From positions 1-51,048 of the forward strand of contig CALUTT010000002.1 in assembly GCA_944323775.1 (NCBI GenBank): a stretch of DNA of 51,048 bases, in the 5' to 3' direction. The position numbers and the translations under genes were made by a program. Below are positions 8,841 through 19,377 of the stretch, piece after piece (position 1 is the stretch's first letter; every line of letters begins with the position of its first letter). This stretch comes from an uncultured Bacteroidales bacterium (GTDB taxonomy: Bacteria > Bacteroidota > Bacteroidia > Bacteroidales > UBA932). The notes under the pieces were generated by a model. It was not told the origin of the DNA, made no database searches, and saw only the letters and a program-made list of their open reading frames with translations.

Positions 8841-8913
8841 GGTGCTGTAGCTCAGGTGGTAGAGCAATGGACTGAAAATCCATGTGTCGCCGGTTCAACT
8901 CCTGCCAGCACCA
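8841..8913 (+). tRNA. tRNA-Phe (anticodon GAA)
   Basis: A cloverleaf can be drawn by hand: acceptor GGTGCTG/CAGCACC (8841-8847 with 8906-8912), D stem GCTC/GAGC, anticodon stem ATGGA/TCCAT around CTGAAAA with GAA at 8874-8876, and T arm GCCGG-TTCAACT-CCTGC. The discriminator is A8913. CCA is not encoded in full (CAC follows), so it must be added enzymatically. The T stem has one C-T mismatch (8891 against 8903). Confidence 0.95.
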
Positions 8914-10911: not shown

Positions 10912-13092
10912 CTAGCTTATGAAGAGCATCTCACGATACTTGGGAAGAGGCCATATCCTGTTGTCCACGATCTCCTCGAGATTGTCGATAGGCTTCCTGA
11001 GATCTTCGAGGGCCTCCGCTATCTCATGGTAAGCCACGGCCTTCTCGTACTCGTCCTCAATGGCATTTGCCTTCTTGCGGGCAAGCTTCATCGCAGCGGC
11101 CTTGACGCGTATCTGCTCAACATAGTCGGAAATCTTTCCGATCAGTTCGAGCTCCGCGGTGCAGTTGTCGGCAGATCCGAATACACTCTTGCACAGAGCC
11201 ACCTCCTTCAGCAGCCTGGCCTTGTACTCCAGCACGGCAGGTATGATATGGTTGGTAGACATCCTGACGAGCACCCTTGACTCGATCTGGACCTTCTTGG
11301 AATACATCTCCCACTTGACCTCATTGCGGGCATGAAGTTCCTCCTCGGTGTAGACACCAGTCTTGGTGAACATCTCCACAGATGCAGGTTCTGTAAATAC
11401 CTTGATCATCTCGGGGACGCTTGTCTTGACATCGAGTCCGCGCCTCTGGGCTTCCGCCTTCCACTCCTCGGAATAACCGTTTCCGTCGAAGCAAACTACA
11501 TCCAGCACAGAAGCTATCACAGGCTTGAGAGCATCCATTATCGCGACGTTGGTCTTCTTGCCTGCCGCAATCTGCTTGTCAACTTCGGCCTTGAACAGGG
11601 TGAGCTGTTCTGCGACTGCCGCGCTGAGGGTGGTGATGGCACCGGCACAGTTCGCTGACGAACCTACGGCTCGGAACTCGAAACGGTTACCTGTGAATGC
11701 AAACGGAGAAGTCCTGTTGCGGTCAGTGTTGTCGACGAAGATTTCAGGAATTTCGACCAGTCCGAGTTTCTTGCCGCGTTTCCCCGCAATCTCGATAGGA
11801 GTGTCGGAAGGAACGGTCAGCAACTTGTGAAGCACGTCGGTCATGGTCTTTCCCAGGAACGCAGACACGATTGCAGGGGGTGCTTCGTTGGCTCCAAGCC
11901 TGTATGCGTTGGAAGCCGTAGCGATGGAAGCCTTGAGAAGGCCGTTGTGTCTCTGCACGGCGGCAAGGACATTCACGAAGAAAGTGACGAACTGCAGATT
12001 GCCCTTGGCATCCTTGCCAGGAGCGAAAAGAGGCACTCCGGTATCGGTTCCCATTGACCAGTTGTTGTGTTTGCCCGAACCGTTGACTCCGGCAAAAGGC
12101 TTTTCGTGGAACAGCACCACGAACCCATGCTTGCGCGCTATGGAATTCATCAGGTTCATTACAATCTGGTTCTGGTCGTTGGACAGATTCGCCTCACCAT
12201 ATATCGGAGCAAGTTCAAACTGGTTGGGGGCTACCTCATTATGCCGTGTCTTGAGAGGAATTCCAAGCCTGTGCCCTGCAATCTCAAGGTCGCGCATGAA
12301 TGATGCGACTCTGGTAGGGATGGCACCGAAGTAGTGGTCATCAAGCTGCTGGTTCTTTGATGAATTGTGTCCCATCAGGGTACGGCCGGTGATCATCAGG
12401 TCAGAACGGGCAGAATAAAGGGATTCGTCAACGAGAAAATACTCCTGCTCCCATCCAAGATAGGTTATCACCTTGCTAACCGACGGGTCGAAAAGCTTGC
12501 AGATGGGAACTGCCGCATCTGAAACAGCCTTGAGAGATTTCTTCAGAGGGGTCTTGTAGTCAAGAGCCTCGCCGTTGTATGAAACGAAGATTGTAGGGAT
12601 GCACAGGGTGTCGTCCTGTATGAATACCGGAGAAGTAGGATCCCACGCCGTATAGCCCCTGGCCTCGAATGTAGCCCTGATTCCTCCACTCGGGAAAGAA
12701 GACGCGTCAGGCTCCTGCTGGATAAGGCTCTTGCCGTCGAAAGTCTCGATGACACCGCCCTTGCCATCATAGTCAATCAGGGAATCATGCTTTTCAGCCG
12801 TACCTTCGGTCAGCGGCTGGAACCAGTGGGTGATATGGGTTACGTGATGCTCCATGGCCCATTCCTTCATTCCGCGCGCCACACCGTCAGCTGTCTTGCT
12901 GTCAAGAGGAACTCCCTTGTCGATGCATTCCAGAAGAGCCTTGAGCGTTTTCGCGTCAAGATACTTGTACATCTTCCTGCGGTCGAAAACAAGCTCCCCG
13001 AAATAATCGGAAGTCTTGCCCTCCGGCACATCAACAGGTACGGTCTTCTTCTCGAAGGATTCCTTTACCAAATCTAGTCTGTCGATACTCAT
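10912..13092 (-). CDS. glnN: Type III glutamine synthetase
   Basis: GSIII makes glutamine from glutamate, ammonia and ATP in the cytoplasm and is the main ammonium-assimilating enzyme of many Bacteroidales. The product has 726 residues, matching the ~729 known for Bacteroides fragilis GSIII. Conserved regions include GWEQEYFLVDESLY, the KTRHNEVAPNQFELAPIYG block, GVNGSGKHNNWSM and NRTSPFAFTGNRFEFRAVGSS. I place the start at 13092 (MSIDRLDLVKES) because a longer frame to 13158 would run through the upstream terminator hairpin and adds an implausible N-terminus. The gene lies behind its own promoter, a Gln-rich leader peptide and a terminator, so expression is probably controlled by transcription attenuation sensing charged tRNA-Gln. 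Confidence 0.95.
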   Translation of the reverse strand: MSIDRLDLVKESFEKKTVPVDVPEGKTSDYFGELVFDRRKMYKYLDAKTLKALLECIDKGVPLDSKTADGVARGMKEWAMEHHVTHITHWFQPLTEGTAEKHDSLIDYDGKGGVIETFDGKSLIQQEPDASSFPSGGIRATFEARGYTAWDPTSPVFIQDDTLCIPTIFVSYNGEALDYKTPLKKSLKAVSDAAVPICKLFDPSVSKVITYLGWEQEYFLVDESLYSARSDLMITGRTLMGHNSSKNQQLDDHYFGAIPTRVASFMRDLEIAGHRLGIPLKTRHNEVAPNQFELAPIYGEANLSNDQNQIVMNLMNSIARKHGFVVLFHEKPFAGVNGSGKHNNWSMGTDTGVPLFAPGKDAKGNLQFVTFFVNVLAAVQRHNGLLKASIATASNAYRLGANEAPPAIVSAFLGKTMTDVLHKLLTVPSDTPIEIAGKRGKKLGLVEIPEIFVDNTDRNRTSPFAFTGNRFEFRAVGSSANCAGAITTLSAAVAEQLTLFKAEVDKQIAAGKKTNVAIMDALKPVIASVLDVVCFDGNGYSEEWKAEAQRRGLDVKTSVPEMIKVFTEPASVEMFTKTGVYTEEELHARNEVKWEMYSKKVQIESRVLVRMSTNHIIPAVLEYKARLLKEVALCKSVFGSADNCTAELELIGKISDYVEQIRVKAAAMKLARKKANAIEDEYEKAVAYHEIAEALEDLRKPIDNLEEIVDNRIWPLPKYREMLFIS

Positions 13093-13124
13093 ACTGTTAA
13101 ATATATAATTAATAAAACCGTTGC

Positions 13125-13156
13125 AAAAAAAAGAGGCTGATCCTCTGACCAGCCTC
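13125..13156 (-). terminator. Attenuator terminator in the glnN leader
   Basis: On the minus strand GAGGCTGGTC (13156-13147), loop AGAG and GATCAGCCTC (13142-13133) form a 10-bp stem with one G-U pair, followed by eight T (13132-13125). It lies between the leader peptide and glnN, 32 bases before the glnN start codon, so it must be bypassed for glnN to be transcribed. Confidence 0.88.
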
Positions 13157-13235
13157 AAATTTATTGTCTTACCTGTGAATGCTCATTATCGTGCCCTCCG
13201 GCCGGCATTTCAGCGCACGGGAACATCCAGGACCA
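13138..13235 (-). promoter_or_regulatory. Candidate antiterminator pairing in the glnN leader
   Basis: Two leader segments can pair with the two halves of the terminator. GCCGGCC (13206-13200), just after the leader stop codon, pairs with GGCTGGT (13154-13148) using 7 pairs, two of them G-U. TGGTCCT (13235-13229) pairs with AGGATCA (13144-13138) using 7 pairs, one of them G-U. The helices are nested and can coexist, replacing the terminator. A ribosome on the stop codon would cover 13206-13200. This is a hand fold, not computed. Confidence 0.55.
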
Positions 13236-13296
13236 TATTCTGGCTCTGCTGCTGCTCCTGCTGCTGCTGGAAAAACGAAAAAATATAAGCGTTCAC
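13210..13296 (-). CDS. Glutamine-rich leader peptide of glnN (28 residues)
   Basis: A 28-codon frame starting with GTG (13296-13294) and ending with TGA (13212-13210). An AAGGA Shine-Dalgarno (13305-13301) sits 4 bases before the start. The centre reads FFQQQQEQQQSQN: eight glutamines, all CAG, at codons 10-13, 15-17 and 19. It is preceded by a full-consensus promoter and followed by a terminator ahead of the glutamine synthetase gene, the architecture of trp/his-type leader peptides. The expected role is regulatory: ribosomes slow at Gln codons when charged tRNA-Gln is scarce. The peptide itself probably has no function. It is too short for usual gene finders. Confidence 0.8.
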   Translation of the reverse strand: MNAYIFSFFQQQQEQQQSQNMVLDVPVR

Positions 13297-13322
13297 TGTA
13301 TCCTTGCTAAGTTTTCGGGGCG

Positions 13323-13352
13323 CAAGTTAGAAATATAATTTGTAAACTCAAA
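13323..13352 (-). promoter_or_regulatory. Promoter of the glnN leader transcript
   Basis: On the minus strand TTTG (13352-13349), a spacer of exactly 19 bases and TAACTTG (13329-13323) form a promoter one base short of the TAnnTTTG consensus. Transcription should begin near 13318, about 20 bases before the leader-peptide start codon. Confidence 0.75.
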
Positions 13353-13397: not shown

Positions 13398-15365
13398 ATG
13401 CCTGATTATGGATTCGTGAGGGTGGCGGCCGCGATGCCCCTCGTACACGTTGGGGACTGCAAGGCCAACGTCAGTGAAATCGTATCTCTTGCAAATGAAC
13501 TGGCCGGCCGCGGAGTCGGCATCGCCGTATTCCCGGAACTCAGCGTAACCGGATACACCTGCGCAGACCTTTTCGGGCTGGAAAACCTGATAGAAGACGC
13601 TCAGAACGCAGTTGCCGAAATACTTGACAAGACTTCATCCCTCGGAATGACCCTTGTATTCGGCACTCCGGCAAGATGGCACGGCCGTCTGTTCAACTGC
13701 GCCGTTGTCGCATGCAGGGGAAAGATTCTTGGAATCGTTCCGAAGACCTACCTCGCCGGGAATGCAGAATTCTACGAACCTCGATGGTTCGAGTCGGCGA
13801 GAGTCCTTCCTGAAGAGGGAGTGCGCATATGCTTTGCCGGGCAGGATGACATTCTGCTGGGAGCACGCCAGCTTTTCCATCCACGCGGCAGCCTTCTGAC
13901 CTTCGGCGTTGAAATATGCCAGGACCTGTGGGCACCAGTTCCCCCAAGCTCATTCGAGGCCCTGTCCGGTGCGCAGCTCATAGTCAACCTTTCGGCAAGC
14001 AACGAAATCCTTCTGAAACACGAATACCGCAAGTCACTCGTACAGGCGACATCTTCCAGGCTTTTCTGCGCATATGTCTACTGTTCGTGCGGATTCGGCG
14101 AATCCACCCAGGACCTCGTCTGGGCCGGCTCGTCGCTGATATGCGAATACGGCGGCATTCTTGCTGAAAGCGAGCGCTTCAAGATGGAGAGTACAAGCAT
14201 CATGGCTGACATAGATGTCCAGAGACTTGAGACTATGCGTGCAAAGGAACACAGTTTCAGGCTCGAGTCCATGCCTATGGCCCGTTTCACGGAAACGCAG
14301 ATCCCTCCGCTCCCTGAAACCGACTTCGAGGCACTGCTTCTGCGTCATGTCGAGCCGCATCCTTTCGTACCGCAGGCCGACCCCGAACACCTGGACCTCA
14401 GGTGTCGTGAGATCATTTCATCGCAGGTCGCCGGACTCGCGACAAGACTCTCGCACATCCATTGCAGCCACGCTGTAATCGGTGTTTCCGGAGGGTTGGA
14501 CTCAACTCTCGCACTCCTTGTCACCGTACTCGCTTTCGATGCCCTCGGAATACCCAGGAAGAATGTACTTGGTGTAACTATGCCGGGCTTCGGCACCACA
14601 CGGCGCACACACGACAATTCCACCGCTCTGATGACGCTGCTCGGAACCGCTTCGACTGAAATCTCGATTGTCCCGGCAGTAAGGCAGCACTTCAGGGACA
14701 TAGGGCACGACGAATCCATACATGACCTCACTTACGAGAACAGTCAGGCAAGGGAACGCACCCAGCTGCTCATGGACATAGCGGGCAAGACAGGAGGCAT
14801 CGTGATCGGCACCGGAGACCTTTCCGAACTGGCGCTCGGCTGGTGCACCTACAACGGAGACCACATGTCCATGTATGCGGTCAACGTCAGCGTACCCAAG
14901 ACTCTCGTCAGGACTCTCGTTCTGTGGGCGGCCGACAACAGATTCGCCGACAACCCGGAAGCATCGGCCGTACTCAGGGACATCGCAGACACTCCGATAA
15001 GCCCGGAACTCGTACCGGCAGACGAAAACGGCCAGATTAAACAGAAGACCGAGGACCTTATCGGCCCCTACGAACTTCATGACTTCTTCCTGTACAATTT
15101 CTTCCGCTGGGGTTACGGACCGGACAAGACAATGCTTCTCGCACAAAAGGCATTTGCCGGGAAATACGATTCCGGCACTATCGCCAAATGGCTGAGAAAC
15201 TTCATGAAAAGGTTCTACTCGCAGCAGTTCAAGAGATCCTGCATTCCTGACGGGCCCAAGGTCGGCTCCGTCGCCCTGTCCCCGAGAGGAGACTGGAGGA
15301 TGCCGTCCGACGTCTCGTGCCCGTGGGACCTTGCAGAGGCAGAAACGCAGGGTCAGTCAAAATAA
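13398..15365 (+). CDS. nadE: Glutamine-dependent NAD+ synthetase
   Basis: Converts deamido-NAD+ to NAD+ with ATP, taking ammonia from glutamine. The 655-residue protein has the two-domain form. An N-terminal nitrilase-type glutaminase carries the Glu of FPELSVTGYTC (E47), the Lys of PKTYLAGNAEFYEPRWF and the Cys of GVEICQDLWAP. A C-terminal synthetase carries the pyrophosphate loop GVSGGLDSTLALL. The later GTGDLSELALGWCTYNGDHMSMY segment is typical of the family. It is divergent from glnN, which makes the glutamine it consumes, and the two promoters lie back to back. Its last 13 bases overlap the 3' end of lysA on the opposite strand. Confidence 0.95.
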   Translation: MPDYGFVRVAAAMPLVHVGDCKANVSEIVSLANELAGRGVGIAVFPELSVTGYTCADLFGLENLIEDAQNAVAEILDKTSSLGMTLVFGTPARWHGRLFNCAVVACRGKILGIVPKTYLAGNAEFYEPRWFESARVLPEEGVRICFAGQDDILLGARQLFHPRGSLLTFGVEICQDLWAPVPPSSFEALSGAQLIVNLSASNEILLKHEYRKSLVQATSSRLFCAYVYCSCGFGESTQDLVWAGSSLICEYGGILAESERFKMESTSIMADIDVQRLETMRAKEHSFRLESMPMARFTETQIPPLPETDFEALLLRHVEPHPFVPQADPEHLDLRCREIISSQVAGLATRLSHIHCSHAVIGVSGGLDSTLALLVTVLAFDALGIPRKNVLGVTMPGFGTTRRTHDNSTALMTLLGTASTEISIVPAVRQHFRDIGHDESIHDLTYENSQARERTQLLMDIAGKTGGIVIGTGDLSELALGWCTYNGDHMSMYAVNVSVPKTLVRTLVLWAADNRFADNPEASAVLRDIADTPISPELVPADENGQIKQKTEDLIGPYELHDFFLYNFFRWGYGPDKTMLLAQKAFAGKYDSGTIAKWLRNFMKRFYSQQFKRSCIPDGPKVGSVALSPRGDWRMPSDVSCPWDLAEAETQGQSK

Positions 15366-17841: not shown

Positions 17842-19361
<1,520 letters not shown>

Positions 19362-19377
19362 TTTTTTCTTTTCTCTC

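Follow-up and report, generated by a model that had tools for sequence, protein, structure and literature searches.

A putative leader-peptide attenuator with glutamine codons ahead of the type III glutamine synthetase gene of a Cryptobacteroides-like bacterium, and amide-codon counterparts in other Bacteroidales

The glnN leader and its parts

We analyzed a 51,048-nt stretch of DNA from an uncultured Bacteroidales bacterium (assembly GCA_944323775.1, contig CALUTT010000002.1, positions 1 to 51,048; hereafter the window), in which the gene for a type III glutamine synthetase (glnN, GSIII) is preceded by a short open reading frame (ORF) rich in Gln codons and by an intrinsic terminator. The closest named relative of this GSIII among the matches listed is that of Candidatus Cryptobacteroides merdipullorum (84% identity), and the host is a Cryptobacteroides-like bacterium. 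A first-pass annotation of the window had read the region as a glutamine-sensing attenuator, in which the segment GCCGGCC behind the leader stop codon pairs with the terminator 5' arm when ribosomes stall on Gln codons and is masked by a ribosome at the stop codon when Gln is plentiful. All of its coordinates hold (promoter pair, AAGGA site, GTG-started ORF, eight CAG in ten codons, GCCGGCC, terminator, and glnN start at 13092), and the promoter spacing of 19 was confirmed. The parts are as follows.

13349-13352, minus strand: TTTG, -33-like promoter element, read from the sequence
13323-13329, minus strand: TAACTTG, -7-like promoter element, with 19 nt between it and TTTG
13210-13296, minus strand: leader ORF, GTG start, 28 codons, TGA stop, peptide VNAYIFSFFQQQQEQQQSQNMVLDVPVR, with counterparts 5' of GSIII in relatives
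13240-13269, minus strand: putative regulatory codons, eight CAG (Gln) in ten, from codon reading
13229-13235, minus strand: TGGTCCT, possible second antiterminator strand to AGGATCA (13144-13138)
13190-13219, minus strand: core of the predicted stem-loop P1, CGTGC..CT / AG..GCACG, the antiterminator segment lying in its 14-nt loop
13200-13206, minus strand: GCCGGCC, putative antiterminator segment, pairing with GGCTGGT, with covariation in the family
13148-13154, minus strand: GGCTGGT, portion of the terminator 5' arm that the antiterminator segment could bind, with covariation
13133-13156, minus strand: intrinsic terminator stem-loop, 10 bp, loop AGAG, predicted fold of -17.7 kcal/mol
13125-13132, minus strand: terminator T tract, 8 T
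10912-13092, minus strand: glnN (GSIII), 726 aa, the putatively controlled gene, matching PF12437 (247.3 bits), PF18318, and PF00120 above cut-off

The TTTG/TAACTTG pair is presumably of the Bacteroidales promoter type, and an AAGGA site lies 5' of the GTG-started ORF. The eight Gln of the run are followed directly by a single Asn, and GCCGGCC starts 4 nt and ends 10 nt beyond the TGA. A GlnRS is encoded in the window's own genome (712.9 bits), through which the charging level of tRNA-Gln can directly reflect glutamine.

Leaders ahead of GSIII in related genomes

GSIII upstream regions were collected from genomes of the genus, where 71 of 101 genomes gave a match and 30 loci were kept, and from named contigs, where 80 were kept out of at least 591 confirmed. 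A Gln/Asn-rich leader followed by a terminator was identified in 28 of the 97 distinct regions, with two peptides occurring twice; examples are MAYTVYNQQQNQQSQGNQSGVVSACV (L004), MMNVFSQQQNQQQSQSQVLGRFAC (L032), and MSFVVLNNNNQNNNQNQQVLIASV (L020). Additional leaders were found at three of 20 further GSIII regions of the genus (L243, L245, and L246). Some leaders lie on contigs labelled Muribaculaceae (L096), Porphyromonadaceae (L092), and Bacteroidaceae (L103). At these loci the short ORF 5' of the gene carries a run of product-amino-acid codons, and a conserved intrinsic terminator stands between the ORF and the gene. The putative device is thus patchy but recurrent, and the comparison of GSIII 5' regions that the first-pass annotation had proposed did yield the amide-rich ORF, the terminator, and compensatory changes, within the limits given below.

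Some GSIII loci depart from this arrangement. In L061, L062, L230, and L232 a strong terminator (GAGGGCTAGTCC...) lies 5' of GSIII without an amide leader, possibly reflecting another kind of control or a relic. In L037, the terminator and its preceding sequence, roughly 140 to 40 nt ahead of the GSIII start, resemble those of L004 without a leader ORF, which may be a natural loss or an assembly fault. L103/L359 carries two tandem GGCTGG-type terminators at GSIII, the first behind an amide leader and the second some 100 nt ahead of GSIII. In L377, L378, L396, L397, and L398 the GSIII leaders contain few amide codons and share the ending ...PAGE, in which CCAGCC is encoded; these leaders may read another signal.

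Amide density and codon use

The density of the window leader, nine Gln/Asn in 12 residues, is reached by only one of the 1781 stop-ended frames of the window, counted over the last 55 aa of each frame. The pattern CARCARCAR-N0-6-CARCAR has ten matches in the whole own genome, two of them at the leader, and the reversed pattern has two; Gln-codon runs alone are therefore not unique in this genome, and it is their combination with a terminator and an antiterminator that stands out. In the best 12-residue windows of 72 nonredundant leaders, 340 of 864 residues are Gln (39%) and 310 are Asn (36%), together 75%. The amide codons of these leaders comprise 330 CAG, 10 CAA, 224 AAT, and 86 AAC. Where AAT/AAC take the place of CAG, the residue remains an amide and the RNA sequence changes. 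The window's long frames mostly write Gln as CAG (454/506), but AAT is not the usual choice for Asn there (248/680), AAC being preferred; in L280-L319, L359-L378, and the GSIII set, the leaders favour AAT over AAC, opposite to these frames. As Gln and Asn codons are about equally frequent in the relatives, the signal of the family would be the charging of amide tRNAs. The family would read amides, Gln and Asn, and the window's own leader mainly Gln, so that the proposed sensing of Gln holds for the window, where Gln dominates, and has to be widened for its relatives.

Terminator and antiterminator helices

Covariation was scored in two alignments, A1 with 30 leaders and A2 with 69 of the 72. 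The terminator contains 23 double-change cells in A1 (0/500 shuffles as many). In A2 its cells are paired at 92.3%, with 89 double-change cells (0/500); when pairs showing at least one double change are counted instead, 52/500 shuffles reach the observed value. For the antiterminator helix, A1 is only suggestive (3 double-change cells, 35/500). In A2 the pairing of this helix reaches 92.2%, and 13 double-change cells were counted (0/500); when slid along A2, the helix is paired at 49.4% at most. The omission of L283, L027, and L314, which have odd terminator arms, favours the A2 results for both the terminator and the antiterminator. In most aligned relatives CCAGCC replaces the GCCGGCC-type segment of the window.

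The alignment-free exchange of terminator arms between leaders, in which the three omitted leaders were kept, showed that the own arm beats exchanged arms (16/10000 with 72 leaders and 1/10000 with the 19 having noncanonical arms). L300, which has no amide run, was excluded from the arm-swap, mask-fold, composition, and P1 tests, and near-identical leaders had been removed beforehand. Per-leader shuffle tests of the antiterminator gave weak results in many cases (mean z -1.1 over 31 leaders). The predicted terminator and antiterminator helices covary in the leader family, and the proposed pairing of GCCGGCC with the terminator 5' arm is borne out at family level, with a weaker signal after strict de-duplication.

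A stem-loop holding the antiterminator segment

A third predicted element, additional to those of the first-pass annotation, is the stem-loop P1, built from the final codons of the leader ORF and the nucleotides behind them, with the antiterminator segment (CCAGCC, CCGGTC, CCGGCC, etc.) in its loop. P1 was analyzed in 80 of 83 leaders, three having no usable segment. With the segment held unpaired, P1 folds beat 95% of the shuffles in 41 of the 80 leaders (mean z -1.88), and in the window (13219-13190) 7/200 shuffles were as stable. Exchange of the right flank raised the mean energy from -9.12 to -5.41 kcal/mol (0/10000), which holds without the commonest stem family (n = 59) and at 22 dissimilar leaders (0/5000), while decoys placed 12 nt upstream or 14 nt downstream were negative. 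Because the constraint itself could create the loop, the folds were repeated without it: over the 80 leaders the segment was unpaired at 0.83 on average and its flanks at 0.33, against 0.59 for the segment with exchanged flanks, and in 74 leaders the segment was unpaired at 0.5 or more. The median loop is 9 nt, and the letters of P1 vary among leaders with the pairing retained. As the segment was picked solely by its fit to the terminator arm, the P1 stem is independent evidence. The earlier picture of a segment that is simply masked or free is therefore modified in that the segment of the family would lie in the loop of a kept stem-loop.

Leaders ahead of other nitrogen genes

A covariance model built from the 30 leaders, with the terminator hairpin as its only structure (R1), had matches passing an E value of 0.01 in 220 of 300 genus genomes; among the matches listed, 68 in 60 genomes reached at least 45 bits. 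We fetched 40 regions with 41 R1 matches, some of them on contigs already in the set, and an ORF with at least five Gln/Asn per 12 residues preceded the terminator at 38 of the 41 (at least seven in 32). In a tally that was not de-duplicated, some contigs being reached twice (e.g. L302 and L033, with an identical leader), the genes after these 38 leaders were GSIII (12), glnK and/or amtB (12), asnB (8), a porin-like ORF before glnK (2), gltB (1), a PurF-like amidotransferase (1), a circularly permuted ATP-grasp gene (1), and one unassigned gene. Thus, 36 of the 38 precede genes that make, move, sense, or consume Gln/Asn, two of them with the intervening porin-like ORF. Representative downstream genes were checked with NCBIfam and Pfam, and the rest were assigned through resemblance to them; the PurF-like protein (L299) is below the NCBIfam cut-off, and the P-II protein is below the NCBIfam and above the Pfam cut-off. 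The ATP-grasp gene lies behind the amide leader of L283, and porin-like ORFs follow amide leaders in L281, L301, L376, and L410, with a weak Gcw_chp match in L281.

Asn-rich leaders were observed in further genomes. The L070 and L073 genomes have them before asnB, glnK-amtB, and pyrG (e.g. NNNQNNNQNQNNNQ), and the L083 genome, with six or seven amides per 12 residues, before GSIII, amt, and a porin-like ORF. A second model (R2) had matches at E <= 1e-6 in 11 of 121 genomes of G646's family, ten once G696, whose match (L388) is not a leader, was removed; leader-bearing genomes of this family have leaders before glnK-amtB, asnB, gltB, and glmS, among others. A covariance search of 393 genomes of the order gave six that pass 1e-7, namely the window, G301, G615, and three genomes with single matches of 42-45 bits that were judged to be ordinary terminators. 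G301 and G615 have three matches each, with leaders before GSIII, amt, and a porin-like ORF with glnK; the match coordinates of G615 are those of the L083 genome. In a search of 344 genomes, 126 pass E 1e-4 and only the window scores above 42 bits. Weak model matches were rejected as leaders, the inspected weak or off-family ones (L330, L405, L406, L407, L388, L300, L312, and L317) having no convincing amide leader. Control of GSIII, as first proposed, agrees with the position of the leader in the window, but GSIII is not the only gene concerned, since relatives carry the leader before a set of nitrogen genes.

Proposed mechanism

Counted from the first nucleotide of the last amide codon, the antiterminator segment starts at a median of 32 nt and P1 at a median of 16 nt, with quartiles of 12 and 19 nt for P1. 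If a ribosome at the stop codon is modelled as covering stop-12 to stop+13, there is overlap with the segment in 61 of 78 leaders. In equilibrium folds with the ribosome as a mask, the 72 leaders averaged 3.14 antiterminator pairs with no ribosome, 5.87 with a stalled ribosome, and 3.51 with a ribosome at the stop, a shift in the expected direction. Nested folds cannot represent a pseudoknot between loop and arm.

We propose that RNA polymerase would transcribe the leader while a ribosome begins the leader ORF. With scarce Gln-tRNA the ribosome would stall at the CAG run with its leading edge close to P1; P1 would then fold and display CCGGCC/CCAGCC in its loop, which could pair with the emerging GGCTGG, occupy the terminator 5' arm, and let transcription enter glnN. 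With plentiful Gln-tRNA the ribosome would reach the stop codon, open P1, and usually cover the segment, whereupon the terminator would form and transcription would end near 13125. The amide-codon ORFs and the predicted terminator, alternative helix, and P1 stem are supported by comparative sequence tests; from these we infer that the ORF is translated, that the ribosome stalls, in which direction regulation runs, and that the antiterminator is a loop-to-arm pseudoknot, and the effects of stalled and finished ribosomes on P1 and the segment are predicted from geometry. On these sequence comparisons the earlier reading of a Gln-sensing GSIII attenuator is supported, and the leader is probably a ribosome-mediated transcription attenuator that reads tRNA-Gln charging, in relatives also tRNA-Asn charging, and controls glnN. 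A wider proposal, to which we give slightly less than an even chance, is that nitrogen assimilation in several Bacteroidales lineages is under a set of amide-tRNA attenuators (glnN, glnK-amtB, asnB, gltB, pyrG, glmS, PurF-like), every one of which has a Gln/Asn leader peptide of its own and a pseudoknot antiterminator from a stem-loop at the edge of the stalled ribosome, and that these would be ON without translation, unlike trp.

Evidence against the proposal and alternative explanations

Several results count against the attenuator as proposed. No leader was found at any of the 109 GSIII upstream regions of the order sample (L120-L229 without the too-short L228, among the matches listed), where the best Gln/Asn count was 5/12; a leader before every GSIII gene of the order is thereby ruled out, and conservation ahead of GSIII stands for the 28 regions described above but not across the order. 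The covariance models gave no second leader copy in the own genome, in which the glnK, amtB, and asnB genes were not searched for; the next-best scores after the window leader were 17 bits (R1) and 21 bits (R2). The antiterminator structure slid by -3 likewise has 12 double-change cells in A2, the antiterminator swap weakens after stricter removal of similar leaders (89/5000, n = 47; 381/5000, n = 22), and some noncanonical arms fit poorly (L309 at rank 57 of 72, L314 at 44, L313 at 39). In the free fold of its P1 stretch, the segment of the window is unpaired at only 0.45, and in 17 of 78 leaders the ribosome at the stop codon does not overlap the segment. The window itself gave 0.3 antiterminator pairs with no ribosome, 4.7 with a stalled ribosome, and 5.4 with a ribosome at the stop, so that the shift seen in the family mean is not repeated there and a clean thermodynamic switch was not obtained. 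The complete terminator wins in the computed fold states; since the finished terminator wins at equilibrium, the switch would have to be kinetic.

The same parts could be arranged as a plain trp-type attenuator, with P1 as an anti-antiterminator and with a nested antiterminator helix, in which CCGGCC and TGGTCCT pair with the 5' arm, loop, and 3' arm of the terminator, forming when a stalled ribosome disturbs P1. The window is more compatible with this than the family, its segment being more often paired than not, and the nested helix is possible there: TGGTCCT (13235-13229) would pair with AGGATCA (13144-13138) at -9.7 kcal/mol in isolation, and the family swap test of this second pairing gave 41/10000, so that the earlier suggestion of TGGTCCT binding the terminator loop and 3' arm is retained as a possible pairing. 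We nevertheless consider the trp-type arrangement unlikely, as P1 starts far enough past the last amide codon that a stalled ribosome mostly should not open it, and the segment of the family sits in a loop and not in a stem. Under the strict form, a hairpin 1:2 with the antiterminator strand in its stem, the predicted folds of the family do not qualify, and the window alone, at 0.45, falls clearly on neither side. Trp-type attenuation predicts termination when translation is absent. That Asn, or Asn and Gln jointly, is the real signal, with the Gln-only look of the window as one end of a range, is possible but on balance doubtful. The share of Asn in the runs and the Asn-rich leaders of the L070/L073 genomes speak for it, and the window leader, with its eight Gln and one Asn right behind, speaks against it.

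The remaining explanations fare worse. Leader ORFs can act through translation or Rho access, and the leader might chiefly affect glnN translation or Rho access with an incidental terminator; this is very unlikely, given that the terminator is the best covarying helix and precedes the glnN start without overlap. Even less probable is that the CAG repeat is conserved for RNA structure (CAG with CTG) rather than for its codons: the full fold of the window leader does pair CAG repeats with other leader parts, but CAG is traded for AAT/AAC among leaders and is the usual Gln codon of the window in any case. A chance low-complexity ORF beside an ordinary terminator has a next to negligible probability. 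Gln-codon runs occur elsewhere in the genome, and generic terminators give weak model matches in many genomes, but this explanation is already contradicted by the recurrence of amide-rich ORFs before glutamine-related genes in several lineages and by the single window frame of such density. The attenuator reading tRNA-Gln charging is therefore the explanation that we prefer.

Relation to known systems

Ribosome-mediated transcription attenuators of the trp/his type are known from proteobacteria. The amide leaders share with them a leader ORF with a run of end-product codons, an intrinsic terminator, and a competing upstream helix, and differ from them in their codons (Gln, Asn), in their occurrence also before glnK-amtB (nitrogen uptake) and amidotransferase genes, in having the antiterminator segment predicted within an apical loop close to where the stalled ribosome would end, and in their Bacteroidales hosts. 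T-box leaders read tRNA charging by direct tRNA binding. The amide leaders would likewise read charging upstream of a terminator, with a putatively translated leader ORF in place of the bound tRNA. Glutamine riboswitches, the glnA RNA and the downstream-peptide RNA, also provide glutamine-linked 5'-leader control of nitrogen genes, unlike the present leaders, which have a leader ORF that is presumably translated. No Rfam family, including glutamine riboswitches and T-boxes, was detected at the window leader or at the loci of ten relatives at the gathering threshold. Nitrogen sensing in Bacteroidales is, to our knowledge, poorly described. If the regulon exists, amide-tRNA attenuation would constitute a nitrogen sensor without a regulator protein for gut and rumen bacteria.

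According to the available text of PMC1262725, the LEU element of actinobacterial leuA has a leucine leader with a conserved pseudoknot; the amide leaders resemble it in having a leader peptide with a codon run and in their predicted pseudoknot. Before the Firmicutes cases of PMC2965389, leader-peptide systems were, to the knowledge of its authors, documented for Proteobacteria and Actinobacteria only, with the exception of ermC. Clues to leader-peptide attenuation before amino-acid biosynthesis operons have been reported for Flavobacterium psychrophilum, likewise a Bacteroidetes host with leader peptides, and the available part of that paper names no glutamine or asparagine leader (PMC9723704). 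The words glutamine and asparagine are absent from the main text of PMC4833913. In Prevotella ruminicola 23, glnK, amtB, asnB, glnN-2, and gltBD shift jointly by tens of fold with nitrogen supply and are higher on ammonium than on peptides; for limiting versus excess ammonium the text and the figure legend disagree, and the available text names no controlling element (PMC5552732). We found no description of a Gln/Asn leader-peptide attenuator or of such a regulon in our searches of the open-access literature, a scope outside which preprints and most subscription papers lie.

Neighboring features

The promoter pattern TTG-N18-20-TAnnTTG was present upstream of 20 of 86 leaders and in none of the 86 reversed controls; with a strict match in only 20, a promoter pattern common to all leaders was rejected. 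As the first-pass annotation had stated, nadE is divergent from GSIII in the window.

13398-15365, plus strand: nadE, with NAD synthase and carbon-nitrogen hydrolase domains

A nadE gene lies 5' of GSIII on the opposite strand at 12 other loci as well, near in some and more than 1 kb away in others; at the window and these 12 loci, no result links nadE to the putative switch. The window also contains a class A RNase P RNA (19050-19367) and a tRNA (8841-8913), both on the plus strand.

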